A stretch of DNA of 42,421 nt from contig CANGGK010000004.1 of NCBI GenBank assembly GCA_947453475.1, positions 1-42,421 on the forward strand, written 5' to 3'. Shown one piece after another: positions 4,767 to 39,541 of the stretch (the first letter of the stretch is position 1; every line of letters starts with the position of its first letter). Below the pieces are notes generated by a model. That model ran no database searches. It had not been told where the DNA came from and was given only the letters and a program-made list of their open reading frames with translations. Position numbers and translations under genes: made by a program. The stretch is from Microbacteriaceae bacterium (GTDB lineage Bacteria; Actinomycetota; Actinomycetes; Actinomycetales; Microbacteriaceae).

Positions 4767-6407
4767 CTAGTCGAGGTCGTGTGCGTCAATAATTTCGTAG
4801 CTGTACCCCTGCTCGGCAAGGAAGCGTTGACGGTTTTGCGCGAAGTCTTGGTCGACGGTGTCTCGGGTGATTAGGGTATAGAAGTTCGCTGCGCGGCCGT
4901 CGGCCTTAGGGCGTAACAAACGGCCGAGTCGCTGTGCCTCTTCTTGGCGTGAACCATAAGAGCCAGAAATTTGCAGTGCGACCGAAGCCTCTGGGAGGTC
5001 AACCGAGAAGTTGGCGACCTTTGAAACAACCAGGGTTGTAATCCCGCCGTTGCGGAACTGTTCAAATAAACGCTCGCGCTCATCAACCGGGGTTTCGCCG
5101 GTGATTTCGGGCACTCGCAACGCACCAGAGATTGCGTGAATCTGGTCTAGGTATTGCCCGATGATGAGAGTCGGTTCGCCAGCGTGCTTCTTCAAAAGTT
5201 TTTGAATGACAGGAATCTTGACGGCCGATGTGGCAGCTAGGCGATACTTTTCATCCTGGTTCGAAATTGCATAGGCAAAACGCTCGTCTTCGCCCATGTC
5301 GATGCGAACCTCATAACAAGCAGCAGGTGCGATGTAACCCTGGGCTTCAATCTCTTTCCAAGGGGCATCGAATCGCTTCGGGCCGATAAGCGAGAACACG
5401 TCGCCTTCTTTGCCGTCTTCGCGAACCAAGGTCGCGGTCAACCCGAGGCGTCGGCGAGCCTGAAGATCTGCACTCATCTTGAAAATTGGCGCTGGCAGCA
5501 GGTGCACCTCGTCGTAGACGATGAGACCCCAGTCGTTGGCGTTGAGCAAAGCCAGGTGCGCGTATTCGTTCTTGCGCTTGGTGGTTAAAATTTGGTAAGT
5601 CGCGATGGTAACCGGCTTGATTTCTTTGACCGAGCCAGAATATTCACCGATTTCATCCTCGGTAAGCGTGGTGCGGCGGAGCAGTTCGTTTTTCCACTGG
5701 CGAGCCGAAACCGTGTTGGTTACCAGGATGAGGGTGTTGGTCTTAGCGGTGGCCATGGCGGCGGCGCCAACGATGGTTTTACCGGCACCGCAAGGCAGAA
5801 CGACAACGCCGGAGCCGCCGGCCCAGAATTTCTCAACGGCTTGGCTCTGGTAATCGCGAATCTTCCAATCATCAGCGGTCGACAATTCGATTGCGTGAGG
5901 GGTGCCTTCGGCATAACCCGCAAAGTCTTCAGCCGGCCATCCTAGTTTTAGAAGTTCTTGCTTGACTTGGCCGCGGGCCCAGTCTTGAATCTTGAACGCC
6001 TCATTGCCAACCGGCCCGTCGAGCAAAAGAGAGATCTTCCGGTTGCGGCTGGCCTCAAGCAATACCGCTCGATCGGTAGAAAAGAGTTCAAGTTGGTTGT
6101 CTGCACCGCGACGAATCGAAAGACGACCATAGCGTGACATGGTTTCTGTGATGTCTTGACGAACGGTAGACGGAATCGGAAACTTGGCGTACTTATCTAG
6201 CACGCCAATTACGAACTCAGAATCGTGGCCGGCCGCGCGAGCATTCCAAAGCCCGAGGCGGGTTATGCGATAGGTGTGAATGTGCTCGGGTGCGCGTTCA
6301 AGTTCGGCAAAAATCGCAAGGTCGTGGCGTGCGTCGGCGGCATCCGGGTGGTCAACCTCAAGCAAGGCGGTCTTGTCGCTCTGAACAATCAACGGTCCCA
6401 TAGTCAT
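4767..6407 (-). CDS. XPB/Ssl2-type DNA repair helicase
   Basis: A 546-residue superfamily 2 helicase of the bacterial XPB (ERCC3-like) family, a 3'-5' DNA translocase linked to repair. An N-terminal damage-recognition-like domain (about 1-175) is followed by Walker A PCGAGKT (205-211), the DEVH box (299-302), the XPB-specific RED motif (R329-E330-D331), and a C-terminal helicase lobe ending in an RLGRLLRPK motif VI. It lies 12 bases downstream of the helicase-associated gene, so the two are probably co-transcribed. ATG codons exist at 6407 and 6401; AAGGA stands well placed for 6401, so the protein may be two residues shorter. Confidence 0.95.
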   Translation of the reverse strand: MTMGPLIVQSDKTALLEVDHPDAADARHDLAIFAELERAPEHIHTYRITRLGLWNARAAGHDSEFVIGVLDKYAKFPIPSTVRQDITETMSRYGRLSIRRGADNQLELFSTDRAVLLEASRNRKISLLLDGPVGNEAFKIQDWARGQVKQELLKLGWPAEDFAGYAEGTPHAIELSTADDWKIRDYQSQAVEKFWAGGSGVVVLPCGAGKTIVGAAAMATAKTNTLILVTNTVSARQWKNELLRRTTLTEDEIGEYSGSVKEIKPVTIATYQILTTKRKNEYAHLALLNANDWGLIVYDEVHLLPAPIFKMSADLQARRRLGLTATLVREDGKEGDVFSLIGPKRFDAPWKEIEAQGYIAPAACYEVRIDMGEDERFAYAISNQDEKYRLAATSAVKIPVIQKLLKKHAGEPTLIIGQYLDQIHAISGALRVPEITGETPVDERERLFEQFRNGGITTLVVSKVANFSVDLPEASVALQISGSYGSRQEEAQRLGRLLRPKADGRAANFYTLITRDTVDQDFAQNRQRFLAEQGYSYEIIDAHDLD

Positions 6408-6419
6408 CCTTATAGCCTA

Positions 6420-8180
6420 TTAGCCCAGCGAAACCCTGGTGATGCTGGTCAACGGCAAGGTTCGCTCGATGTCAGCTTTTTTATCTTTGGCCCTTAGTCG
6501 CCCGTTGGCAAAGCCGATTGGCTCTAATGTGAATTCGAGTTCGACGCCCGTGTTCGAAATCACTCCGATGATGATGATCGACTTGTTCTTGATGGCAAGT
6601 TGAATAGATCGGGCAAGGTCATCGCCATCAGGCTCGCTGCCGAGTTTTTCTTCTTGATCGCGAAGTCTCTGAATGTCAAGGTCAACGGTGCTCGAGACTT
6701 CGATGTGCTCACTAGTCAGCAGGGGAGTACGCGGCGAAATCACTTGGCCGCCGTTGTCCACCCGCACCGCACTGAAGCCAGCATCGCGCAAGCCAAAATA
6801 AACCATTTCGGGCTCGAAACGGCAGCCAATGGTTCCATCAGGCAGGGCATACATTGCGAATGGTTTGAGTTTCGATTCATTCAAGATTTGAGCCAGCAGA
6901 ATCGAGTCGAGTGACTTGATGACGCTTTTTGTTTCTAGCTCGCCCGCACCAACAGTTAAGCGACCAAAACGCTGGGCGGCCTCACGAATCAAGTAGTCAA
7001 CTGGTTGAGGCAACGCCTTATCGGTTAGCTCCAACAGCCAGCCGCGGATTTCGCTTTCGGTCATGCCGGTTTCGAGACCGTGGCTGATGCTCAAAGCCGA
7101 CATGCGATATGTAGAGGCCATGCCGATTTGCTCGGTGTCGGCAAATCTGCGAACCGCAATTTCAAGTTCGGTCGGAAGCGGCCCAGGTGCAATCAAAGAA
7201 AGGTCGGCCTGGCAAATCAGTTTGCGCTGTGGTGCCGGCAAAAAGTTACTTGCCGATTTCGCAGCTTGAGCAACTTCGCCCCTAAGCGTGGCCATCGCCC
7301 AATGGCTTAGCCAACCTTCGTGCGAAAGCCCAATGCGTTCTGCGAACGATGCAACGCGAGCCATCCGAGAACTGACTGCGCTGTCTGCAAACGGATAATT
7401 TTCTTTCAGCTGCCTGGTTAGCGAAATGACGCCCGAGCCGCCTGAGATTGCAATTGACTCAAGAAGGTCATTGGCTGAAGAGGCGCCAAGAAGCTCTAGC
7501 CAGACAGTCATCAAGTGCTGGTGACGGGCTGTTGGCTGCCAGTCGAGCCAGTTGAGGGCTTGCGGGCCAAGCTGCCAGCGGCCAGCGACGAGACCGATGA
7601 GGTCTGCGTGATTGGCAAGTTCATAAATTTCGCGCGCAAAATCGTTTGTTTGACGAAGGTGCTGGGCAAGTCTTTTGATGTCAGGCAAGCCGACGTTCTT
7701 TTTGCCTACTTCACGGATGTAACGCTGCTCGACATCAAAGACCAGTTCGGTCAAAGCCTGCATGGTTTCGAAGGTCGCAATTCCGCAATCGCGGTCGACC
7801 TCGGGTTGCAACGGTGAGCTACCCGCAGCTTCGAGAGCCAAGGTTGCGGGCGTTTCTAGAGTTTGAAGGCAGAGCGCTGTCGATTCAAAAAGTGAAAATG
7901 AACCATCAACCGCTCTGTCGATAAGCAAAAGTCTCACTAGAGCGTCGGCAGCCTTTTCATCAGGGGTTTGACCCTCGAGAATGGCGATCAAGGCGTTGAT
8001 CTGCGCCTTAGGCAGGCCGGCAACTGTGCTGGCCACCGATTTGGGCTGACTCAGGCTTTCGGCCAGGTCGAAGAAGTCGCGTAACCCCGAACTGTTCACC
8101 ATTCGTTGTGAAATGACCGCTCTCAGGTCATCATCGCTTGCTCGGCGAAGGGCCGAGGCAATGCGAAGCAGTTCACTCAT
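6420..8180 (-). CDS. XPB helicase-associated protein
   Basis: A 586-residue protein of the actinobacterial helicase-associated family usually encoded beside bacterial XPB. The N-terminal two thirds are helical without ATPase motifs. The C-terminal part (about 430-586) resembles the Helicase_C_3-like and WYL-like folds, with a segment near residues 535-580 (IIIIGVISNTG, then EPIGFANGRLRA) like the ligand-binding strands of WYL domains. It ends 12 bases before XPB, implying a shared mRNA and probably a physical partnership, which is inference from context. The biochemical role is not established to my knowledge. Confidence 0.8.
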   Translation of the reverse strand: MSELLRIASALRRASDDDLRAVISQRMVNSSGLRDFFDLAESLSQPKSVASTVAGLPKAQINALIAILEGQTPDEKAADALVRLLLIDRAVDGSFSLFESTALCLQTLETPATLALEAAGSSPLQPEVDRDCGIATFETMQALTELVFDVEQRYIREVGKKNVGLPDIKRLAQHLRQTNDFAREIYELANHADLIGLVAGRWQLGPQALNWLDWQPTARHQHLMTVWLELLGASSANDLLESIAISGGSGVISLTRQLKENYPFADSAVSSRMARVASFAERIGLSHEGWLSHWAMATLRGEVAQAAKSASNFLPAPQRKLICQADLSLIAPGPLPTELEIAVRRFADTEQIGMASTYRMSALSISHGLETGMTESEIRGWLLELTDKALPQPVDYLIREAAQRFGRLTVGAGELETKSVIKSLDSILLAQILNESKLKPFAMYALPDGTIGCRFEPEMVYFGLRDAGFSAVRVDNGGQVISPRTPLLTSEHIEVSSTVDLDIQRLRDQEEKLGSEPDGDDLARSIQLAIKNKSIIIIGVISNTGVELEFTLEPIGFANGRLRAKDKKADIERTLPLTSITRVSLG

Positions 8181-12714: not shown

Positions 12715-12726
12715 GAGAGGTATTTG

Positions 12727-13221
12727 ATGCGCACCTTGGTTCTGAATGCGGGATACGAACCACTCGCAGTGGTCTCATTCAAACGAGCGATCATCCTGGT
12801 CTTGAACAACAAAGCCACGGTCTTGGCGGGCGCTCCAGAAGCCACCGTGCATTCTGCCAAGGATGAATTCGAGCTACCTTCGGTGATCTTATTGTCGCGT
12901 TACGTTCGCATTCCCGGCAGTAGAAACGTTCCGGTCTCGCGCAGGGGCGTACTTCGCCGAGACGGCCACACCTGCGCCTATTGCTCTAGACCGGCAAACA
13001 CTATTGATCATGTTCAACCGCGATCAAAGGGAGGGCGTGACACTTGGGAGAACCTGGTTGCCTGTTGTTTCGCTTGCAACAACCGAAAGGGCGACAAGAC
13101 TCTGGCCGAGATGGGCTGGAAGCTAAACTTCACGCCACGGATGCCTAGCGGCACAGTTTGGAGCGTTCGTGGAACCGAACGGCTCGAGCCCGACTGGAAC
13201 CCATACCTGCAGGCTGCCTAA
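12727..13221 (+). CDS. HNH endonuclease family protein
   Basis: A 164-residue protein typical of a widespread actinobacterial HNH family. Zinc-binding CxxC pairs are C83/C86 and C114/C117; the beta-beta-alpha metal site carries D94-H95, N109 and N118/N119. The first 70 residues (MRTLVLNAGYEPLAVV onward) are the family's conserved N-terminal region. ATG 12727 is preceded by AGAGG six bases away; the TTG three bases earlier is less likely. HNH proteins nick or cut DNA, but this housekeeping-like family has no established role that I know of. Expression may depend on the upstream terminator. Confidence 0.9.
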   Translation: MRTLVLNAGYEPLAVVSFKRAIILVLNNKATVLAGAPEATVHSAKDEFELPSVILLSRYVRIPGSRNVPVSRRGVLRRDGHTCAYCSRPANTIDHVQPRSKGGRDTWENLVACCFACNNRKGDKTLAEMGWKLNFTPRMPSGTVWSVRGTERLEPDWNPYLQAA

Positions 13222-13419: not shown

Positions 13420-16400
13420 ATGGTTGATTTTGAAGTTACCGGAGCAAAAATCTCGCGCGCTCAGTGGGATGCCTGGCAAGAGGAAATCACAGCCATCGGA
13501 GTCACCAATCCGCTCACGAACTTTGAGCCAAACACCTTCGGTCAAATCGACCTAGAGCGCAGTCATCCGGGCGGTTTCTCACAATTTGTGACCGGCCGAA
13601 CCACACTTCTTTCGAACTTAGTTCGAGACCCGTTGGCATATTCTCGGGCGCTTGCAGCTGCTCGCCGAATCAATGCAAAGTCAGAGCGCCTTCAGAATCA
13701 CTTCGGAATCGAAACTCTTTTCTTGGTGGGCGGTCTCGCAGACTTTGAGGGTGACGGTTTCGATCTCAAGATGCCGATTCTGCTCTGGCCGCTCTCACTC
13801 GAGAAAAAGGGCGATGACTACGAACTGCAGAAATCAGGTGCGCCGTTTGTAAACCCGGCCTTCGTAGATTCGCTCGAGACTTGCTACGGAATCAAACTCA
13901 ACGAAACCGAGTTGCTTTCCAGACAAAACGAGAGTTCAGATCTTGTGCCGGTTACCGTCTTGAATTATTTGGCAAATCTAACCGCGACGACGGCGACATT
14001 AGATTTCAAGCGAATTCTGGTTATCTCAAACTTCACCATCGCGCCTACCGAAATGCTTAGAGATTTTAAGCGCATCGAAACTCCACTGCTCAGCGAGCTG
14101 GCCGGCGACGCTCGAGAGAGCCTTGAAGACATTCACACTTCTGAGATGTTGTTTGTGGCCGACGCCGACGCTACGCAGGTTCGAATTGCTGCTCGAGCGC
14201 TTGCCGGGCAGAGTTTTGCTATCGAGACATTGCCAGGTTGTGGTTACCTTCAGACCGTGGTCAACACGCTTGGTGTGCTTGTGCAAGCCGGAAAGCGAGT
14301 TGCGGTGGTTGCGCCAAGGAGACAGACCCTCAACGAACTAGCTGATCGCCTATCTGAAACCGGCCTAGCTGGAATGGGTGTTCGCGCCTACAGCACCTGG
14401 GTAGACGTTGTCGCCTCAATTTCTCGAAGTGAAAAGGCGCAAGCGGTTGATCTCTCGGCGGCCCGAGGTAAGAGGCTGGTGGCTGAGCAAGAACTCGACG
14501 CCTATTTCAAAGCTCTCGACCAAAAGGTTGAATCGCTTGGCGTTTCGATTTCAGAAATCTTGACCGAACTTTCGGCTCTTAGCGCCATGCCACATGCTCC
14601 CGTCACGAACGCGCGCATCGAGGCAAAATATCTAACCGACCACCTCGATCGCAAAGTAGCGCTCACCTTGCTTGCCGAAGCGGAAGAGCTGGGTGAGTTC
14701 AAATTCGGTCCGCAAGACACGGCTTGGTATCAAGCGCAGTTCAATTCACCTGGCGAGGTCGGCCAGGCCATTGAGCTAGCCAAAAAACTTCGCGATGATT
14801 CTTTTCCAAACTTGTCTTTACAACTTGCCGATTTCATTGCAGCGGTCAATTTCAAGCCAGCCAACAGCGTAGAAGAGTTCGGAATTTACCTCAAGCTGTT
14901 TATGGGGGTTCGCGAAACGCACGATCGATTCGTGGCAGATGTTTTTGATCGACCACTGACCGAGTTAATCGCTGCTACTGCCCCGCGGCAGGGAGTCGAA
15001 AAGAGCGAGCGCGCGAAGATCTCTGGAGTTAACCGTCGCAGACTCAAGAAACTTGCCAAAGAGTACCTGCGTCCTGGAATGCACGTTGCAGACCTGCATG
15101 TTGCGCTACTGGAAATTCAGCACCAACGCGAGCTGTGGCAGCTTTACTCGCTTTCGCCGGTTACGCCTCAGGTGCCAGCGGGTATCAACGATGCCCAGGT
15201 TGCCTACCAATCTTTCGTCGCAGACCTCGATGCAATTCAGCGGCACCTCGACCCAGAGTCGACCGAAGTGCCGCTTAAGCAACTCAACCTCGAAAAGTTG
15301 AAGTTGAAACTTAACTCTTTGGCTGAAGACACCGAGGCATTAGCAAATCTGGGTGATCGAGCCATGCTCGCCGGCCAACTGCGAGCCACGGGCTTGGGCC
15401 AACTGGCAAGAGACCTTGGGCGGTTACACACTCCTAAAGACCGGCTCGCTGTTGAGCTTGATTTGGCATGGTGGCAGTCTGCACTCGAATTCGCACTCTC
15501 AAAAGATTCGACTTTGCTGGCCTATTCAGCTGAACGAATTGAAGCCAACGAAGAGAACTTCCGCAAGGCATACCAAACGCAAATTCAACTCGGTTCAAAG
15601 CATCTGGCAAAACACCTAGCCGACGCTTGGCACGCTTCTCTTGCCGAAAACCAAGCCGAGGCTCAATCGCTTAAGGTGGCGCTCAAAACTGGCTCAGCCA
15701 GTTTTGGTTCACTTGCCAAGGCAGCGCCACGAATTTGGCCTACCTTATCTGCTGTGAAACTGCTTTCTCCTTATGAAGCTGCTCGAAACCTAGATTCGGA
15801 TGAGACCTTCGACGTGGTTTTCGTCTTGGATGCGGCCGGAAGCACCATTGCCGAGAACCTTGGAGTTCTGTCTCGTGCTCGCCAGATTCTAGCTTTCGGC
15901 GACGATGCAATATCGATGCCAACCGGGTTTGAAATTGAATCTCGAGCGATTCCCCTCGGTCGCGAAATAACGTCACCTTCGGTGTTTGCCGAGGTGCGCA
16001 GAATCTACGGCTCTGAGGTATTGCGATATAGTTACCGAACCACCAGCCAAGCGCTGGCGAGTCTAATTAATCGCGAGTTTTATCAGAACCGCATCGAATT
16101 CGAACCGAGTGCGGGCGAATATCTCGGTGAAAAGTCTTTCAACCTAGATTTGGTGCTGCTAGAAAATCGAGCCACGAGCACAATCGAAGGTTCTACCGAG
16201 AGTCTCGGTGCCGAGGTTGAGCGTGCCGTAGAGCAGGTCTTCCACCATGCAGCCTGGCATCCCGAAGAGTCACTGCTGCTAGCCAGCGCTTCTTCGGTGC
16301 ACGCCGAGAGAGTTCGCGCCGGCATCCGTGAAGGTTTGAAGTCACGACCAGAACTCGCCGAATTCTTCCACAGTCATGGCCGCGAGAAGTTTGAAGTCTT

Positions 16401-17100
16401 GGCAATCTCAGATTTGACCCACCGCCTCGCCGATCGAGTCATTTTCTCAATTGGGTTTGGGCGCACCTCGCATGGGGCAGTGCTTTCAAACTTTGGTCAA
16501 TTGAGTGAGCCCGAGGGTCGGCGTTCGCTTGCCAATCTACTTGTCAGTGCGCGCAGAGAAATCACTGTAATTTCTTGCTTTGCAGCCGAAGACATTCCGG
16601 CAGACCGACTAACCAACGGAGCGCTATTGCTTCGAGATTTGCTTGCCACTGCCGATGCGCTTCCAGAACCAAGCGATGCGTTACCAGACCCGATGTTGAA
16701 CGATCTCAGCCTGCGTCTCAAGAAACTCGGTGCACGCGTCGATGAAACCCTTTCGGCATCGATGCCGCTAGTGGTTAGTTACGCCAAGAAGGCCGCTGTG
16801 ATTGAGCCTGATTGGGCTTTACGTGGCCAGAACCGCAACGAGAAATTCCGCATTCGCCCAGGCTTGTTGAAGGCATTGGGTTGGCAATACATCAGGGTGC
16901 ACAGTTTCGAACTTTTTGCCGACCCACAGACAATCGCACAGCGCATCGCAGAACAGCTCGGGATGCAAATTTCCAAGCGACCGACTCCGCTATTTGATCC
17001 TTCTGATCGCGCCTTCGAAGACTCGGATGCTGCCTGGGGCGACCGTTCTGATTCAAATGACGCGAGACTTCGCGGAGATAAGCCGCCACACTGGGGCTAG
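13420..17100 (+). CDS. Large superfamily-1 helicase-like protein with degenerate ATPase motifs
   Basis: A 1226-residue intact reading frame with the layout of the large Upf1/DNA2-like helicases of actinobacteria. The N-terminal region (1-260) is of DUF4011-like style. A Walker A position near 268-279 reads LPGCGYLQT, with the expected GKT lysine and threonine replaced by Y276 and L277. An inserted helical region spans about 350-780. The Walker B position VVFVLDAAG (799-807) has D804 but Ala805 in place of the catalytic Glu. The QLPP-like motif reads GDDAISMP. An YSYRTTS segment (near 870) and a late YGRTPHG-like GFGRTSHG segment are kept; motif VI lacks one Arg (LLVSARRE, 1041-1047). The C-terminal 100 residues resemble the endonuclease-like end of the family without a clear DxExK. 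ATP hydrolysis is therefore unlikely; a structural or DNA-binding role is inferred. FmdB converges 11 bases away. Confidence 0.75.
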   Translation: MVDFEVTGAKISRAQWDAWQEEITAIGVTNPLTNFEPNTFGQIDLERSHPGGFSQFVTGRTTLLSNLVRDPLAYSRALAAARRINAKSERLQNHFGIETLFLVGGLADFEGDGFDLKMPILLWPLSLEKKGDDYELQKSGAPFVNPAFVDSLETCYGIKLNETELLSRQNESSDLVPVTVLNYLANLTATTATLDFKRILVISNFTIAPTEMLRDFKRIETPLLSELAGDARESLEDIHTSEMLFVADADATQVRIAARALAGQSFAIETLPGCGYLQTVVNTLGVLVQAGKRVAVVAPRRQTLNELADRLSETGLAGMGVRAYSTWVDVVASISRSEKAQAVDLSAARGKRLVAEQELDAYFKALDQKVESLGVSISEILTELSALSAMPHAPVTNARIEAKYLTDHLDRKVALTLLAEAEELGEFKFGPQDTAWYQAQFNSPGEVGQAIELAKKLRDDSFPNLSLQLADFIAAVNFKPANSVEEFGIYLKLFMGVRETHDRFVADVFDRPLTELIAATAPRQGVEKSERAKISGVNRRRLKKLAKEYLRPGMHVADLHVALLEIQHQRELWQLYSLSPVTPQVPAGINDAQVAYQSFVADLDAIQRHLDPESTEVPLKQLNLEKLKLKLNSLAEDTEALANLGDRAMLAGQLRATGLGQLARDLGRLHTPKDRLAVELDLAWWQSALEFALSKDSTLLAYSAERIEANEENFRKAYQTQIQLGSKHLAKHLADAWHASLAENQAEAQSLKVALKTGSASFGSLAKAAPRIWPTLSAVKLLSPYEAARNLDSDETFDVVFVLDAAGSTIAENLGVLSRARQILAFGDDAISMPTGFEIESRAIPLGREITSPSVFAEVRRIYGSEVLRYSYRTTSQALASLINREFYQNRIEFEPSAGEYLGEKSFNLDLVLLENRATSTIEGSTESLGAEVERAVEQVFHHAAWHPEESLLLASASSVHAERVRAGIREGLKSRPELAEFFHSHGREKFEVLAISDLTHRLADRVIFSIGFGRTSHGAVLSNFGQLSEPEGRRSLANLLVSARREITVISCFAAEDIPADRLTNGALLLRDLLATADALPEPSDALPDPMLNDLSLRLKKLGARVDETLSASMPLVVSYAKKAAVIEPDWALRGQNRNEKFRIRPGLLKALGWQYIRVHSFELFADPQTIAQRIAEQLGMQISKRPTPLFDPSDRAFEDSDAAWGDRSDSNDARLRGDKPPHWG

Positions 17101-17111
17101 TCGAGGTTAGG

Positions 17112-17309
17112 TTAGTCGCTCTTCTTGCTGCTCGAGCCAGAGTCGTTTCGGTAGAAGCCGCTGCCCTTGAAGGTTATGCCAACCTTGCCGAACACCTTTC
17201 GAAGCTCGCCTCCGCATTCAGGGCACTTGGTTAGCGCCGCATCGGCAAATGACTGCTGCACATCAAAGGTGTGCTCACAGTTCTTGCAGGCGTATGAGTA
17301 GAGGGGCAT
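17112..17309 (-). CDS. FmdB-family zinc-ribbon protein
   Basis: A 65-residue protein with a zinc ribbon made by YACKNC (Cys8, Cys11) and KCPECGG, followed by the family's GSGFYRND segment and a Ser/Lys-rich tail. FmdB-type proteins are small putative regulators of unresolved function. It follows the 5-formyl-THF cyclo-ligase gene by four bases on the same strand, matching the Rv0991c-Rv0992c pair of M. tuberculosis as I recall it. Confidence 0.93.
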   Translation of the reverse strand: MPLYSYACKNCEHTFDVQQSFADAALTKCPECGGELRKVFGKVGITFKGSGFYRNDSGSSSKKSD

Positions 17310-17313
17310 TTCT

Positions 17314-17886
17314 CTAGTTTAACCGATTGCTGAAGACCAAGGTTTCCGACGGAGTCACCACTGCGTCTACAGGGTGGTCGTGATTTTCTGTTGGAACAGA
17401 CTCGAGAACCTCTTCATCGAAGACGACGGCGATTACCGGAGCAATGGTCTCTAAAGTCGCCAACGCTTTGTCGTAGTATCCCTTGCCCTTACCTAGCCGC
17501 TGCCCGGCCTTATCTACTGCCATTGCCGGGATGAAGATGAGATCTGCGTCTGAAAGGTCTGCAACAGGCCCTGCCGCTTCTTGAAAACCAAATATCCCAG
17601 TTTGCGTTTCGCCATCGAAGCGAACCCAACCGAGGGTGCCATCCGCGTTTGAGATTGGCAGCAAAACCTCGATTGAATTTTCTAGAGCCCAATCAATAAA
17701 TATTTCGGTGTCGGGCTCATCGCCAAATGCAAGGTAGCAGGCCACCTTGGTTGCGCCGTTGCTTAGGCAGAGTTCGGCAAGTTGAACGCAAAGTTGGCCG
17801 GCCAACTCGGGGTCATACTCACGTTGCGCGCGGCGAGACTTTAACTCGGCGCGCAATTCGCGTTTTTGCTGATTCGCTGCATCCAT
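17314..17886 (-). CDS. 5-formyltetrahydrofolate cyclo-ligase
   Basis: About 190 residues starting with ATG 17886 (MDAANQQKRELR), where family similarity begins; the longer frame from 17931 would run into the divergent GNAT gene. The enzyme converts 5-formyl-THF to methenyl-THF using ATP, clearing an inhibitor of one-carbon enzymes. The ATP/Mg segment RLGKGKGYYD is intact near residue 145, and EPDTEIF near 60 is a family landmark. Only 18 bases separate it from the divergent GNAT start, so both mRNAs are probably leaderless or nearly so. Confidence 0.93.
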   Translation of the reverse strand: MDAANQQKRELRAELKSRRAQREYDPELAGQLCVQLAELCLSNGATKVACYLAFGDEPDTEIFIDWALENSIEVLLPISNADGTLGWVRFDGETQTGIFGFQEAAGPVADLSDADLIFIPAMAVDKAGQRLGKGKGYYDKALATLETIAPVIAVVFDEEVLESVPTENHDHPVDAVVTPSETLVFSNRLN

Positions 17887-17891
17887 GGGAC

Positions 17892-17897
17892 TAATCT
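17892..17897 (+). promoter_or_regulatory. -10 box for leaderless GNAT mRNA
   Basis: TAATCT, seven bases, then GTG at 17905 (the ATG at 17911 is two codons later). It lies inside the 18-base gap to the divergent folate gene, which leaves no room for ribosome sites. Confidence 0.4.
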
Positions 17898-17904
17898 TGC
17901 CATC

Positions 17905-18570
17905 GTGGCTATGACTTTTGCTCTCACCCAAGGTGACGTAACCCTAAGGTTGCTGCGCGTTCGCGATGCCAAGGCGTTGGAGCGGCTAATTCTGGGCAAT
18001 CGGGAATGGCTTCGCCCGTGGGAAGCGACAAACCCATTTGGCCCAAACTCTTTTGATATCAAGGCGATGACCAGAGGTTTGGTGCGGCAGCTGGATGACC
18101 AAAGTGGAATGCCTTGCATCATCGAATATCGCGGTGAGGTTGTCGGTCAGCTAAACGTAGCGAATATTCTTTACGGTTCGGTGAGTAGTGCCGTGCTCGG
18201 CTACTGGGTGGTTCCAGAAGTCGCCGGCCAGGGCGTGACTCCGACAGCTGTTGCCTTGATAACCGACTATCTTTTTCGAGTCGTTGGGTTGCACAGAGTC
18301 GAGATCGACATTCGCCCCGAAAATCTTGCATCCTTGCGCGTAATTGAAAAACTCGGATTCCGATATGAGGGTTTGAAAGAGCGTTACATACACATCAATG
18401 GCGCTTGGCGTGATCATTATATTTTTGCGCTGACTCACGAAGAGGTTTCCGAGGGAGTGCTGAGCCGGTGGCTACAGGGCAAAGTGGCAGGTTTGAGCTA
18501 TCCGTGGAGCTTGTCAAAATCAAATCCAATTAAACACACCGAATTAAATGCAGATGAGTTGGGTAGCTAG
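17905..18570 (+). CDS. GNAT N-acetyltransferase (RimJ/RimL type)
   Basis: About 221 residues from GTG 17905 (219 from ATG 17911). The GNAT fold is shown by LRLLRVRDA near the N-terminus, the acetyl-CoA-binding GYWVVPEVAGQGVTPTAV segment (Q/RxxGxG/A-like), and IRPENLASLRVIEKLGFRYEG, the classic Asn-x-x-Ser region of RimJ/RimL enzymes that acetylate N-termini of ribosomal proteins or other substrates. It corresponds in order to the RimJ-like Rv0995. The substrate is not predictable. Confidence 0.92.
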   Translation: MAMTFALTQGDVTLRLLRVRDAKALERLILGNREWLRPWEATNPFGPNSFDIKAMTRGLVRQLDDQSGMPCIIEYRGEVVGQLNVANILYGSVSSAVLGYWVVPEVAGQGVTPTAVALITDYLFRVVGLHRVEIDIRPENLASLRVIEKLGFRYEGLKERYIHINGAWRDHYIFALTHEEVSEGVLSRWLQGKVAGLSYPWSLSKSNPIKHTELNADELGS

Positions 18571-18586: not shown

Positions 18587-19003
18587 ATGAACTTCGATGG
18601 ATTTGGCGGAATGGCCCTGGCAGTGGTTGCCGGACTCTGGCTATTGGTCTTTGTTCCGTCATGGTTCAAACGTTCGCAAGAACGTGAGCGTGGCATCTAC
18701 TCGCCTCGCCCGAAGGCTTCAAAATCAAAGCGCGGGATGCCCGCTCGTCGGCCGTCTACAGACAATTTCTTGAGTTTGGCTCGTGAATACGCTGAGACTC
18801 AAGAGCCAGTCTCAGCAGTCGAAGATGAACGCGCATGGGAGCGCACCGTGCTGCCCGCCCCTCGCACTCTGCAGGGCACTTTAGAGGTTCCAGAGATTGC
18901 CGAAGTGCTGTCATTTGATGACGCACACAAAGCCGTTGCTGCTCGTAAACTCGACCAGCGCGAGTTGGATGAAATTCTTCGCCGACGTCGCGCCAACGGC
19001 TAA
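18587..19003 (+). CDS. Conserved actinobacterial membrane-anchored protein
   Basis: A 138-residue protein with one N-terminal transmembrane helix (about 8-27, ending VFVPSWF), a basic juxtamembrane stretch, and a polar cytoplasmic region ending in a charged RRRRANG tail. It occupies the place of Rv0996, a transmembrane protein next to rimJ in M. tuberculosis. No enzymatic motif is visible and the function is unknown. Confidence 0.8.
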   Translation: MNFDGFGGMALAVVAGLWLLVFVPSWFKRSQERERGIYSPRPKASKSKRGMPARRPSTDNFLSLAREYAETQEPVSAVEDERAWERTVLPAPRTLQGTLEVPEIAEVLSFDDAHKAVAARKLDQRELDEILRRRRANG

Positions 19004-25306: not shown

Positions 25307-26920
25307 ATGCCAAACACCAAAGGTCAGTCGTTCTATGTAACGACCCCTATCTTTTACGTCAACGACGCTCCTCACATCGGTCACGCCTATACCGAGGTAG
25401 CTTCTGACGTCTTGGCTCGCTGGCACCGACAGCGCGGAGAGCAGAGTTTCTTACTCACCGGCACCGACGAGCACGGCGAAAAGATTCTGCGTACCGCATC
25501 TGCCAACTCTGTTTCACCGCAGGCTTGGGCCGACAAATTGGTCGAAGAAGCCTGGCTTCCATTGCTTGAAACTATCGATATCGATAACCAAGATTTCATT
25601 CGTACCACCGAGCCGCGTCACGAAAAGAACGTTCAAAAGTTCTTGCAGAAGCTATATGACACCGGCTTCATCTATCGCGGTGAATTCGAAGGCAACTACT
25701 GTGTTGGTTGCGAAGAGTACAAAACCGAGGCCGACCTTATGCCAGGCGACGGCGCATTCGCCGGCCAGCCAGTTTGCGCCATTCACTCGAAGCCGGTTGA
25801 GAAGCTTGCCGAAACCAACTACTTCTTCAAGTTGAGCGAGTTCGAGCAGCCATTGCTCGACTTCTATGCCGCCAACCCAAAGTTCATTCAGCCTGATTCA
25901 GCTCGCAACGAGGTTGTTTCTTTCGTGCGCCGAGGTTTGACTGACCTTTCGATTTCGCGTTCGAAAGAAAAGTTCGACTGGGGAATCGACATTCCCTGGG
26001 ATGACAGTCACATCACCTACGTGTGGTTCGACGCACTCCTGAACTACATCACCGCCATCGGTTACGGCGAAGACTCGGCCGAGGCGATGGCCAAGTTTGA
26101 ATCACTCTGGCCAGCCACCGTTCAGGTAGTCGGTAAAGACATTCTTCGCTTCCACGCCGTTATTTGGCCGGCCATGCTCATGGCTGCCGACCTGCCTCCG
26201 GCTAAGCAGATTTTCGGCCACGGATGGTTGCTAGTTGGTGGCGAGAAGATGTCGAAGTCAAAGTTGACCGGTATCGCTCCGAGCCAGATCACCGACACTT
26301 TTGGCTCTGACGCCTTCCGTTATTACTTCATGAAGGCAATCGCATTCGGCCAAGATGGTTCATTCTCTTGGGAAGACCTCTCAGCCCGATACCAGGCTGA
26401 ACTTGCCAATGGTTTCGGAAACCTCGCGTCGCGCGTAGTTGCCATGATTCACCGCTACTTTGACGGCGTTCTTCCGGCAGCCGGCGCTGCCACCGAAGAT
26501 GACCTAAAGGTTCAGGCGGTTGCGGCGGCGGCGGTGGCAAATGCCGATGCCGCTATTGATGACATCGCTATCCAAGATGCGCTAATCGCCGTGTGGACTC
26601 TCGTCGACGAGCTAAACAACTACATCACCGTGCAAGAGCCTTGGGTTCTTGCCAAGGATGAAGCCAAGCGCGAGCGCCTCGGCACCGTGCTTTACACGGC
26701 AGCCGAAGGTCTTCGAGTGCTAGCAACGTTGATGGCTCCGGTTACGCCAAAGGTTGCCGCCAAGCTCTGGTCGACCGTCGGCCAAGCATCGCTGGGCAAC
26801 CTAGTTGCGCAACCGCTTTCGTCGGCCGCAAACTGGGGGCAGCTAAAGGCTGGCATCGCCATCGGTGAACTTGAGCCGTTGTTCCCGCGCATCGAAACCG
26901 ACGCAACCGAAGCGAAGTAA
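25307..26920 (+). CDS. metG: Methionyl-tRNA synthetase
   Basis: A 537-residue class I aminoacyl-tRNA synthetase charging tRNA-Met for initiation and elongation. HIGH is at residues 23-26 and KMSKS at 314-318. The connective domain carries a YCVGC...C zinc-knuckle-like region near 125-150. It ends at the anticodon-binding helical domain without the C-terminal dimerisation domain, the normal short form. Four bases after rsmI and four before tatD. Confidence 0.98.
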   Translation: MPNTKGQSFYVTTPIFYVNDAPHIGHAYTEVASDVLARWHRQRGEQSFLLTGTDEHGEKILRTASANSVSPQAWADKLVEEAWLPLLETIDIDNQDFIRTTEPRHEKNVQKFLQKLYDTGFIYRGEFEGNYCVGCEEYKTEADLMPGDGAFAGQPVCAIHSKPVEKLAETNYFFKLSEFEQPLLDFYAANPKFIQPDSARNEVVSFVRRGLTDLSISRSKEKFDWGIDIPWDDSHITYVWFDALLNYITAIGYGEDSAEAMAKFESLWPATVQVVGKDILRFHAVIWPAMLMAADLPPAKQIFGHGWLLVGGEKMSKSKLTGIAPSQITDTFGSDAFRYYFMKAIAFGQDGSFSWEDLSARYQAELANGFGNLASRVVAMIHRYFDGVLPAAGAATEDDLKVQAVAAAAVANADAAIDDIAIQDALIAVWTLVDELNNYITVQEPWVLAKDEAKRERLGTVLYTAAEGLRVLATLMAPVTPKVAAKLWSTVGQASLGNLVAQPLSSAANWGQLKAGIAIGELEPLFPRIETDATEAK

Positions 26921-35980: not shown

Positions 35981-38900
35981 GTGAGTGAAGAAAATCTCAA
36001 GGCCCTTTCGCGCCTTGGCGCGCTCATTTCAGAGGGATATCCCTTCGCCGCACTCCAAGCAAAAATCAAGGCTCAACGCGTTGATCTGATTGCACCGCAA
36101 GGTGCGATGGCCCCCGTGGTTGACGTAATTTCCAGGTTCCGCTCTGCTGCAAAGCTCTCGCCGGTTCAGTTGCTTGTGGTGTCTACCGGTCGCGAGGCCG
36201 AGGATGTTGCCGCAACTTTACGTTCGCTTGATGCACATGCTGAGATTCTTGAGTTTCCATCATGGGAGACCCTGCCGCACGAACGATTGAGCCCAAGCCC
36301 CGAGACCGTTGGTCGCCGACTCAAGGTGCTGCACCGTCTCAACGAACTGTCTAAACCAAAGTCACACCCAGATCACCCGGTTTACGTGCTCGCCTCGGTG
36401 CGCGCGGTGTTGCAGCCGGTGGTTGCCGGGCTAGCGAACCACCCGCCGTTGAATCTCGAACAGGGCAAGGATTACCTGCTCTTCGAACTTTCGCTGAAGC
36501 TTGTCGAAATGGCTTACCACCGCGTTGACATGGTTACCAAACGCGGCGAGTTCGCTGTTCGTGGTGGAATTCTCGACATTTTCCCAACTACCTCAGAGCA
36601 CGCACTTCGTCTCGAATTCTTTGGTGATGAACTCGAAGACATCCGTGAATTTTCGGTTGCCGACCAGCGCTCAATTCATAACCAGGATGGCACCATCGCC
36701 AACATCAAGTCGATTGAAATCTACCCGGCTCGTGAAATCATCATTACGCCGCTGGTGGCTAGCCGAGCCCGCGAGATGCTTCACGAGTTTCCGAATATTT
36801 CGACAATGCTCGCCAAGATTGCCGAAGGCATCCCGGTTGACGGTATGGAATCTCTCGCACCGGTTTTGGTCGACGCGATGGTTCCGTTCACCGATTACCT
36901 GCCAGCCGACGCCTTGGCCACTTTGCTATCGCCCGAAAAGTCTGCGGCCCGAGCTCACAGCCTGGTCGAGACCAACGATGAGTTCTTGCACGCCGCGTGG
37001 GATGCCGCTACCGAGGGTGCGCAGGCTCCGATAGACCTGAGCTCGGGTGGTTTCGTTGAGATGTCGCAGTTCAAAGACGCGCTAGACGGTCGTCAGCTTT
37101 TCACCATTTCTCAATTCGGTGCAGATGATGACACCCTGATAAACCTCGGTCTGTTTGAGATTCCAAACTTCAAGGGTCTCGAGACCACCTCTATTGAGTG
37201 GCTCGAAGATCAAGCCAAGAACGGCCAGCACATCATCCTGGTTGCCGAGGGTCATGGCACCGTCGAGCGCCTAAACGAACAACTGACCGCAGCAGGCATC
37301 AAGGGCGAAATCGCTCAAGGCAGCATGCGCAAGGGCTTCACCGTGCCGGATGCCAAACTCATCGTGCTTACCGAGGGTGAGTTCTATGGCAAGAGCACCG
37401 CTTATGTGAGCCCGCAGGTGCGCAAGCTCGCAGCAAAACGAGGCCAGGCGGTTGACCCGCTGAGCCTCAAGGCTGGCGACTACGTTGTTCACGAAACCCA
37501 CGGCATCGGCCGTTTCGTAGAGCTCGTTCAACGTGCCAGCGGCATCGGGCGTCAACAACACCAGCGCGAATACCTGCTCATTGAATACGCGCCATCCAAG
37601 CGCGGTTATCCGGGCGACACACTCTTTGTGCCAACCGACCAGCTCGACCTGCTGACTCGTTACGTTGGTGGCGAGGCGCCCGTGCTTTCGAAGATGGGTG
37701 GCGGTGACTGGGCTCGAGTTAAGGGCAACGCCCGAAAGGCGATTCGCAAGATTGCCATCGACTTGGTCAAGCTCTATTCGGCTCGCATGAAGTCGCGCGG
37801 CCATGCTTTCGGCCCAGATACGCCTTGGCAACACGAACTCGAAGAGGCTTTCGCATTCGTTGAAACTCCTGATCAGTTGACCACCATCGATGAGGTCAAG
37901 CGCGACATGGAGCGTGAGATTCCGATGGACCGCCTACTCGCCGGCGATGTTGGCTATGGCAAGACCGAGGTGGCTATGCGTGCTGCTTTCAAGGCTATCC
38001 AGGATGGCAAGCAGGTGGCGATGCTCGTGCCAACCACTTTGCTGGCCCGTCAGCACACCGACACCATCGAAGCTCGTTTTGCCGGTTTTCCGGTGGTCGT
38101 GCGCTCACTCTCACGTTTTCAAACCGCGAAAGAAGTCAAGGAAACCTTGGCTGGCCTCGCCGATGGTTCGGTCGACATGGTCATCGGAACCCACCGCTTG
38201 CTTGCCGAGTCTGTCAAGTTCCGCCAGCTCGGGCTAATCATCATCGATGAAGAACAGCGTTTCGGTGTTGAGCACAAAGAGAAGCTCAAAGAGATGAAGA
38301 CCAACGTCGACATTCTTTCGATGTCGGCCACTCCGATTCCTCGAACCCTTGAAATGGCCATCACGGGTATCCGTGAAATGTCCACGCTGGCTACACCGCC
38401 AGAGGAGCGCCACCCGATTCTTACCTACATTGGCGCCTATAGCGAGAAGCAGGTGGCGGCAGCGATTCGCCGTGAACTCATCCGTGAAGGTCAGGTTTTC
38501 TTTGTTCATAACCGCGTGAGCACCATCGAGGCGGTGGCCCATCAACTTGCCGAGCTCGTGCCTGAGGCGCGCATTGCGGTGGCTCACGGCCAAATGTCTG
38601 AAGCGGCTCTCGAGCAGGTTGTCGTTGATTTCTGGGAGAAGAAATTCGACGTCTTGGTTTCGACCACGATCATCGAGACCGGCATCGACATACCAAATGC
38701 CAACACATTGATTATCGACCGAGCCGAGAACTTCGGGCTCAGCCAGCTGCACCAGATTCGTGGGCGAGTCGGGCGAAGCCGCGAACGTGCCTACGCCTAC
38801 TTCTTCTATGCCCCAGATAAGCCGCTTACCGAAACCGCTCACGACCGACTGGCTACCATTGCTCAGAACAACGAACTCGGTGGCGGAATGCAGATTGCGA

Positions 38901-39541
38901 TGAAAGACCTCGAGATTCGCGGTGCCGGAAACCTCCTCGGCGGCGAGCAATCTGGACACATCGCCGGTGTCGGCTTCGACCTTTATCTCCGAATGATCGG
39001 CGAGGCGGTTTCTGACTTCAAGGGCGAAAAAATTGAAGCCCCGGCAGAGCTCAAACTCGAGCTGCCGGTCGACGCCCACATTCCGAGTACCTATGTCGAT
39101 TCAGAGCGTTTGCGACTCGAGGCATATCACAAGCTATCGGCGGCTTCGGGGGAGAAGGGCTCGCGTGCGCAGCTCGACGCTATCCTTGCCGAGCTCGAAG
39201 ACCGTTATGGAACGGCTCCGGAGCCGGTGCGAAACCTAATCGAGGTGACCGAACTTCGTCAGCAGGCCAACCGGCTCGGGCTCAAAGACTTCAATGTTCT
39301 TGGCCTGCAGGTTAAGTTGCAGCCGGTAGACCTAACCGAATCGCAACAAGTTCAGCTAACGCATCTCTTCCCGGGCACAAAATACCTGCAATCGGCTCAG
39401 ACCTTGATGGTGCCGGCGCCGCGAGATGCTAACTTCGAACCATTGCGAGATAAACCAATCATCGATTGGGCTTGGGCCTTCTTGGCTCGAGTTTTCCCGC
39501 CGGCCCCACCGACCACAACAAACGACAAGGCAGCAAAATGA
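35981..39541 (+). CDS. mfd: Transcription-repair coupling factor Mfd
   Basis: A 1186-residue ATPase that removes stalled RNA polymerase and recruits UvrA. Domains in order: UvrB-like N-terminal module (1-340), RNA-polymerase interaction domain of the CarD type near 495-570 (GDYVVHETHGIGRF), helicase motor with Walker A GDVGYGKT (655-662) and DEEQ (756-759), the GRVGRSRE motif VI, and the TRCF C-terminal domain. GTG start, probably leaderless. Overlaps mazG by four bases (ATGA). Confidence 0.98.
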   Translation: MSEENLKALSRLGALISEGYPFAALQAKIKAQRVDLIAPQGAMAPVVDVISRFRSAAKLSPVQLLVVSTGREAEDVAATLRSLDAHAEILEFPSWETLPHERLSPSPETVGRRLKVLHRLNELSKPKSHPDHPVYVLASVRAVLQPVVAGLANHPPLNLEQGKDYLLFELSLKLVEMAYHRVDMVTKRGEFAVRGGILDIFPTTSEHALRLEFFGDELEDIREFSVADQRSIHNQDGTIANIKSIEIYPAREIIITPLVASRAREMLHEFPNISTMLAKIAEGIPVDGMESLAPVLVDAMVPFTDYLPADALATLLSPEKSAARAHSLVETNDEFLHAAWDAATEGAQAPIDLSSGGFVEMSQFKDALDGRQLFTISQFGADDDTLINLGLFEIPNFKGLETTSIEWLEDQAKNGQHIILVAEGHGTVERLNEQLTAAGIKGEIAQGSMRKGFTVPDAKLIVLTEGEFYGKSTAYVSPQVRKLAAKRGQAVDPLSLKAGDYVVHETHGIGRFVELVQRASGIGRQQHQREYLLIEYAPSKRGYPGDTLFVPTDQLDLLTRYVGGEAPVLSKMGGGDWARVKGNARKAIRKIAIDLVKLYSARMKSRGHAFGPDTPWQHELEEAFAFVETPDQLTTIDEVKRDMEREIPMDRLLAGDVGYGKTEVAMRAAFKAIQDGKQVAMLVPTTLLARQHTDTIEARFAGFPVVVRSLSRFQTAKEVKETLAGLADGSVDMVIGTHRLLAESVKFRQLGLIIIDEEQRFGVEHKEKLKEMKTNVDILSMSATPIPRTLEMAITGIREMSTLATPPEERHPILTYIGAYSEKQVAAAIRRELIREGQVFFVHNRVSTIEAVAHQLAELVPEARIAVAHGQMSEAALEQVVVDFWEKKFDVLVSTTIIETGIDIPNANTLIIDRAENFGLSQLHQIRGRVGRSRERAYAYFFYAPDKPLTETAHDRLATIAQNNELGGGMQIAMKDLEIRGAGNLLGGEQSGHIAGVGFDLYLRMIGEAVSDFKGEKIEAPAELKLELPVDAHIPSTYVDSERLRLEAYHKLSAASGEKGSRAQLDAILAELEDRYGTAPEPVRNLIEVTELRQQANRLGLKDFNVLGLQVKLQPVDLTESQQVQLTHLFPGTKYLQSAQTLMVPAPRDANFEPLRDKPIIDWAWAFLARVFPPAPPTTTNDKAAK

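Follow-up and report, generated by a model that had tools for sequence, protein, structure and literature searches.

A helicase-like protein of Microbacteriaceae that lacks its ATPase motifs and carries at its C-terminus a peptide found in relatives as a separate microprotein

The window analysed here is a stretch of 42,421 nucleotides, positions 1 to 42,421 of the forward strand of contig CANGGK010000004.1 (assembly GCA_947453475.1) from a Microbacteriaceae bacterium, and the gene under study is an open reading frame (ORF) that encodes a helicase-like protein of 1226 residues. The frame is uninterrupted, as an original prediction made from the letters of this DNA had stated. The protein has the RecA-like core fold of an Upf1-like superfamily 1 (SF1) helicase in a model that runs to residue 1197 and leaves the tail out, its ATPase motifs are degenerate, and it ends in a peptide that relatives carry as a separate microprotein. 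The features of the gene, all on the plus strand, are the following.

13420..17100, plus strand: pseudohelicase ORF, 1226 amino acids, with fused PPHW tail (uninterrupted frame, homologue search, model)
14233..14256, plus strand: degenerate Walker A, residues 272-279, PGCGYLQT, with Tyr276 in place of Lys (alignment)
15826..15837, plus strand: degenerate Walker B, residues 803-806, LDAA where active relatives have DEAS (alignment)
15898..15921, plus strand: motif III-like segment, residues 827-834, GDDAISMP, GD kept and Gln lost (alignment)
16417..16434, plus strand: motif V remnant, residues 1000-1005, Gln-Gly lost at 1000-1001 and Asp1005 kept (alignment)
16534..16563, plus strand: motif VI-like segment, residues 1039-1048, Ser1043 for Arg and Arg1045 kept (alignment)
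16717..16959, plus strand: degenerate MTES_1575/Vsr-like nuclease domain, residues 1100-1180 (Pfam, model, alignment)
17014..17097, plus strand: C-terminal tail, residues 1199-1226, FEDSDAAWGD...NDARLRGDKPPHWG, equal to the separate PPHW microprotein of relatives

When the window protein was compared with active Upf1-like SF1 helicases, the GK[ST] of Walker A, the DE of Walker B, the Arg pair of motif VI and the Gln-Gly of motif V were all found to be wanting, unlike in Ighmbp2, Upf1, Sen1 and Dna2, which are SF1B helicases with active ATPases. In the alignment with active relatives (PGTGKSQT) Tyr276 stands at the Lys position of Walker A and Leu277 at the Ser/Thr position, exactly as had been claimed. 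For Walker B the claimed loss of DE is correct but the residue named, Ala805 for Glu, is one position off. Counted without gaps from the invariant Asp798, FDxxxxDEAS of the active relatives pairs with FDVVFVLDAA, so that the Asp is matched by Leu803, the catalytic Glu by Asp804 and the Ala after DE by Ala805, whereas Ala805 at the Glu would need a one-residue gap. The gap-free register is favoured because this Ala is identical in 13 of 13 active relatives, in 93% of the rows from larger-genome Microbacteriaceae and in 81% of the Luna-type rows. The same register was applied to all 80 loci of the family set (the best 80 of 432 named loci, mostly Microbacteriaceae, among them Rhodoluna, Aquiluna, Leifsonia, Clavibacter, Leucobacter, Cryobacterium and Agromyces), where Walker B read by a stricter anchor is clean throughout and the residue before the Asp is Val in 48, Leu in 25, Met in 5 and Ile in 2. 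Motif VI had been said to lack an Arg; this holds for the first Arg, which is Ser1043 in 21 of 21 Luna-type rows, but not for the second, Arg1045, which is kept in 20 of the 21. The segments YSYRTTS and GFGRTSHG, which had been listed as surviving, are present. Taken together, the original prediction was right in its observation but for one residue of register, and partly right in its interpretation.

The loss of motifs is further advanced in the Luna-type lineage, to which the window belongs (21 rows), than in larger-genome Microbacteriaceae. In the latter the lesions are milder: 36 of 43 rows have Gly where the Walker A Lys would stand, DEAS has mostly become VDAGA, and the motif III Gln (41/43) and both motif VI Arg residues (43/43) are retained. 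Among 80 columns that are identical in the 13 active relatives, 52 are kept at 90% or more in larger-genome Microbacteriaceae and 39 in the Luna rows.

The gene was present in 57 of 59 related genomes and in all 34 near-complete ones; the two that lack a match, both from the genus, have a completeness of 62% and 70%. Tyr276 was found in all 31 genus rows with a readable Walker A (36 aligned); the motif losses are not due to chance because they are fixed across the genus. The survey of orthologues that the original prediction had called for does not make the window protein an outlier, as GK[ST] occurred in none of the 79 family loci whose Walker A could be read and DE in none of the 80. When 149 genomes spread over the order (142 near-complete) were searched at E 1e-20 or better, a homologue was found in 146, and in 140 of the near-complete ones. 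An open frame was read for 142 of the 146 and both motifs were readable in 140, of which 132 have neither motif and 8 have both. All eight belong to f5 and f18 (f-numbers, f1 to f45, are families within the sampled order and class; G- and L-numbers are sampled genomes and loci). In two further, partly readable genomes the one visible motif is lost. The Walker B lesions are scattered: in f1, f6, f7 and f12 the Asp is lost and Glu has become Asp; in f4, f9, f14, f20 and most of f3 the Asp is kept and Glu is replaced, by Ala, Gly, Ser, Asn or another residue; neither of the two survives in f10, f15 and most of f8; in f16 and f19 the Asp is kept and Glu has become Asp. Some Walker B rows of the order set were misread (5 of 10 in f1, 3 of 10 in f7, one each in f8, f18 and f3) and one in f5 was unreadable. 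Outside the order, family f38 has a dead helicase with GRTQ, and with VEDAG or similar for DEAS. Three f18 copies are dead and nested inside an otherwise active clade. Two trees were computed without the motif columns, and on either of them the active and dead states have to switch three times, with starred branches forcing two of the switches; a FastTree warning concerned the meeting of long branches, and the approximately unbiased (AU) test leaves a single dead clade unrejected (p 0.088). At least two losses are therefore likely but not proven.

The protein without ATPase motifs is under strong purifying selection. The ratio of nonsynonymous to synonymous substitution rates (dN/dS), which had been proposed as a check, was about 0.01 to 0.16 in ten close Microbacteriaceae pairs with dS of 0.16 to 0.79. 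Within the genus two pairs had a finite dS and gave 0.110 and 0.094 (dS of the second 2.8); the remaining pairs were saturated.

The final 28 residues of the window protein terminate in NDARLRGDKPPHWG and follow the consensus EDxDxAWGD...NDxRLxxDKPPHWG. Neither the tail nor its existence as a separate microprotein was part of the original prediction. This tail lies inside the helicase frame in 22 of 77 full-length family loci, and 51 of the 55 non-fused loci have a separate ORF immediately downstream that ends in the same way. The start of that ORF was taken as the codon nearest the helicase stop that leaves at least 45 codons, a rule biased toward close starts; with it the start is at most 8 nucleotides away in 36 of the 51, and in 13 it overlaps the stop as ATGA or GTGA. 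In 142 order genomes the tail was fused in 28, separate and adjacent in 99 (one of these, G054, has unresolved letters) and not found in 9, with no data for 6; the first form of the search pattern had found 90 of 142 and was widened after the misses were inspected, which gave 127 of 142. The widened form was also used for the control, in which, for non-fused genomes with at least 250 nucleotides of downstream sequence, the tail was found downstream in 98 of 108, on the opposite strand in 1 of 108, upstream in 1 of 102 and in 9 of 1080 shuffles. The exact ending [KR]PPHWG followed by a stop occurred in 31 of the 59 related genomes, once in each, and the backward control pattern gave 1 match. 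Within the genus the tail is among the best conserved blocks (mean major-residue fraction 0.80 vs 0.60 to 0.74 for other parts), and the microprotein had a pooled dN/dS of 0.23 over ten pairs, which is moderate constraint. Even the 0.8 Mb genome G088 carries a tail candidate. In a full-length model of an Aquiluna relative (L085) the tail is a short helix with a predicted local distance difference test (pLDDT) score of about 55, and docking of the tail into the dead ATP pocket, which was considered, was not predicted. Four versions of the microprotein matched no family in Pfam or NCBIfam at E 1; for further versions, three of three had no Pfam family at E 0.001 and three of four had none in NCBIfam at E 10, the fourth giving weak matches (best E 0.13). 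The equivalence of the separate microprotein with the helicase tail, and their linkage, are observed facts.

The microprotein reaches well beyond the order. A narrower first profile had matched 74 of the 149 order genomes at E 0.01. In 148 genomes spread over the class (126 near-complete) the tail profile matched 121 at E 0.05 or better (105 of the near-complete ones; about 7 are expected by chance), mostly once per genome, whereas the helicase profile matched 28, some of them ProA/Hhe-like paralogues, and most of the genomes with a tail match had no helicase match. In f38 the dead helicase and the microprotein share a strand in 10 of 10 genomes, with the helicase placed upstream at a distance of 0.3 to 5 kb. 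From the 121 genomes 20 loci were hand-picked for diversity, and in 13 of them a gene for MscL, a SAF-like protein, FmdB or 5-formyltetrahydrofolate cyclo-ligase (identities by Pfam) lies on the opposite strand at most 6 kb downstream, starting within 350 nucleotides in 10; the other 7 had no such neighbour in the stretch examined. Two separate observations were made in this set. In family f45 an intact-motif homologue (L320, genome G226) has no tail within 1202 nucleotides downstream, and the microprotein match of that genome sits on another contig. In family f22 (L372 and L373) the microprotein is preceded on its own strand by a response regulator and a histidine kinase, identified by Pfam in L372 only.

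The order of genes in the window matches that of the class loci, namely tail, FmdB, cyclo-ligase and then the RimJ-like gene.

17112..17309, minus strand: FmdB-like zinc-ribbon gene, conserved neighbour (neighbourhood comparison)
17314..17931, minus strand: 5-formyltetrahydrofolate cyclo-ligase, conserved neighbour (Pfam/NCBIfam, neighbourhood comparison)
17866..18570, plus strand: RimJ-like GNAT acetyltransferase, conserved neighbour (Pfam/NCBIfam, neighbourhood comparison)

In 81 Microbacteriaceae loci compared, the cyclo-ligase was present in 72 and the GNAT gene in 71. The wider region is a housekeeping one because it holds an Mfd-type transcription-repair coupling factor, identified by its domains (35981-39541, plus strand), cpn60 (393-2009) and methionyl-tRNA synthetase (25307-26920). 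Directly upstream of the helicase gene is an HNH endonuclease gene (12724-13221, plus strand) that matches IscB and PtuB in NCBIfam with scores far under the cut-offs and whose homologues occur in 27 of the 81 loci, the query included. Two genes downstream of the cyclo-ligase an ORF (18587-19003, plus strand) weakly resembles SepX/GlpR, a protein of the divisome (E 7.5e-05, below cut-off), and has no Pfam match. A protein of 586 amino acids at 6420-8180 (minus strand), adjoining a large ORF at 4767-6407 (minus strand), has Helicase_C_3 as its only match and may be another helicase-like protein that lacks a motor.

The nuclease-like domain is partly degenerate. It scored 20.6 against the Pfam family REase_MTES_1575 (gathering cut-off 38.2), compared with 24.2 in a Leifsonia relative (L103) and 71.2 in an active-type relative (L035). 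As for the acidic residues of the PD-(D/E)xK type, the Asp at 1116, invariant in the 13 active relatives, is lost, Glu1129 is found in 12 of 21 Luna rows and Asp1131 in all 21.

The question then is what a protein of this kind does. It is functional because it is retained across the order, constrained and intact in fold, and it appears to work without an ATPase cycle because its lesions are scattered. It is kept by nearly all relatives sampled in the order, together with the microprotein or fused to it, and for this reason a structural job is favoured over decay. It is most likely an ancient, dead Upf1-like SF1 helicase with a degenerate Vsr-like nuclease domain that serves as a structural subunit. 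Its helicase core may still touch nucleic acid while using no ATP, and the flexible tail would be a docking peptide for a partner conserved throughout the Actinomycetes; the tail is so read because it is poorly ordered in the model, C-terminal, well conserved and also found as a free microprotein. Most relatives in the order would make this peptide as a separate microprotein from the next gene, its start often at or overlapping the helicase stop, and in the genus of the window and several other lineages the two would be made as one polypeptide. We consider it probable that the protein is such a pseudohelicase and pseudonuclease scaffold, tail-docked to a putative conserved partner by a logic like that of RecC. 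The original prediction had also proposed a non-catalytic job such as a scaffold, which agrees best with dead motifs under strong purifying selection. It had proposed in addition a partnership with an active helicase; such an active paralogue to be regulated was sought in the genus and none was found at E 0.001, where each genome gives one gene and those with two or three matches have one gene split over contigs. An active partner of another kind may still exist.

Several observations weigh against a tail-docked scaffold. The conserved core columns could serve folding alone, and the lesions could have arisen by drift following a single loss because the AU test keeps a single origin. Nine of the 142 order genomes, five of them f20, have no tail adjoining the helicase, although some of these f20 genomes have a profile match elsewhere in the genome, G095 has the tail 1.4 kb away and in G041 it was found by profile. 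The eight active f5 and f18 copies have the tail as well, two fused and six separate, so the module is not tied to loss of the ATPase. Microproteins are likewise present where there is no helicase. Finally, residual nuclease activity may persist because Glu1129 is kept in part of the Luna rows and Asp1131 in all of them.

Other explanations have to be set beside it. One that we put forward tentatively is a so far undescribed two-part Actinomycete machine in which the microprotein, class-wide and mostly single-copy, binds a conserved central complex and a helicase-nuclease was recruited beside it in the order, lost its catalysis and became its structural subunit, the repeated fusions betraying the partnership; the complex could be one of transcription, translation, replication or division. 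It is rather unlikely that the protein binds nucleotide without hydrolysis and acts as a sensor or switch. In Microbacteriaceae the skeleton of the P-loop is indeed kept, with Pro272, Gly273 and Gly275 invariant and Gln278 at 90% or more, and Tyr872-Arg873 is invariant, but the protein lacks both the phosphate-binding Lys and the Walker B Asp, and the loop is far more diverged in other families (TGRHSADD and QDTDTAEQ in f4) where the gene is still kept. Catalysis by other residues, such as a displaced Lys and the Asp at the Glu position, is still less probable. Asp804 is invariant in 64 of 64 Microbacteriaceae rows and Lys292-Arg293 are conserved at 90% or more; across families, however, it is here the Asp and there the Glu that is lost, and in f10, f15 and most of f8 both, and because the lesions differ by family a substitute chemistry throughout the order is implausible. 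A decaying relic without function, for which the lost ATPase motifs would speak, can scarcely be believed, as there are no stops inside any listed match, dN/dS is low and the gene is kept in near-complete genus genomes of 1.2 to 1.6 Mb and in an order genome of 0.8 Mb. The absence of internal stops and the low dN/dS, together with losses fixed in genus and family, likewise rule out a recent pseudogene or an assembly error.

The protein is also improbable as a defence protein or as the decoy of an ancestral defence helicase that had been suggested. The closest profiles are those of the anti-phage SF1 helicases of the DUF4011 type, ProA and Hhe (NF058533 and NF042953; PADLOC PDC-S37 and Hhe), and better preserved relatives share by profile their DUF4011-like N-terminus, split SF1 core and MTES_1575/Vsr-like C-terminus. 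The scores, however, are 192.9 and 98.9 bits against curated NCBIfam cut-offs of 1500 and 2000, and, unlike ProA and Hhe, the window protein has lost the catalytic motifs, is near-universal in the order and bears the PPHW tail. Neither score nor motifs thus allow membership. Mobile defence genes are patchy, whereas this gene is present in 140 of 142 near-complete order genomes, in a conserved housekeeping neighbourhood, and nothing seen in the locus suggests defence. An origin from a plasmid or phage was likewise rejected: the matches to 260 plasmid records (220 of them Klebsiella) were weak, the best at 26% identity and none over more than 80% of the query, and one phage record matched the window protein.

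Among known systems, RecC belongs to the UvrD/RecB branch and the window protein to the Upf1-like branch. RecC of RecBCD is described (PMC1185551) as having a PD-(D/E)xK-type domain that is inactivated and plays a structural role in guiding DNA. The window protein is comparable in that its helicase core is dead by its motifs and its nuclease-like domain is partly degenerate, but differs in its microprotein tail, and no RecB or RecD partners are seen for it. The yeast pseudohelicase Utp25 has kept the helicase fold with dispensable catalytic motifs (PMC9539457); unlike the window protein it is a eukaryotic DEAD-box-like factor of ribosome assembly. REase_MTES_1575 (PF18741) is presented in PMC3710099 as a Vsr-like domain on an SF-I helicase, an arrangement the window protein shares, but MTES_1575 is a different and larger protein, with HEPN, transglutaminase and winged helix-turn-helix domains, and the window domain is below the Pfam cut-off. 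In the literature on MTES_1575, DUF4011, ProA, Hhe, RecC, the mscL neighbourhood and Rhodoluna the module is undescribed, judged by titles and abstract openings, and a search for catalytically inactive bacterial helicases with Walker lesions gave no match.

It is unusual for a very large pseudoenzyme to be near-universal in an order and to persist even where genomes are streamlined. Many natural versions with different lesions and a few relatives with intact motifs open the transition from motor to scaffold to direct study. The PPHW peptide flags a widespread, unannotated actinobacterial microprotein, and its 28 residues could be used as bait to fish out the partner, which is probably a class-wide protein because it would be needed where the helicase is missing. 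If that partner is central, the module would reveal an unknown part of actinobacterial cell biology that, to judge from the class-level sample, extends beyond freshwater Microbacteriaceae.

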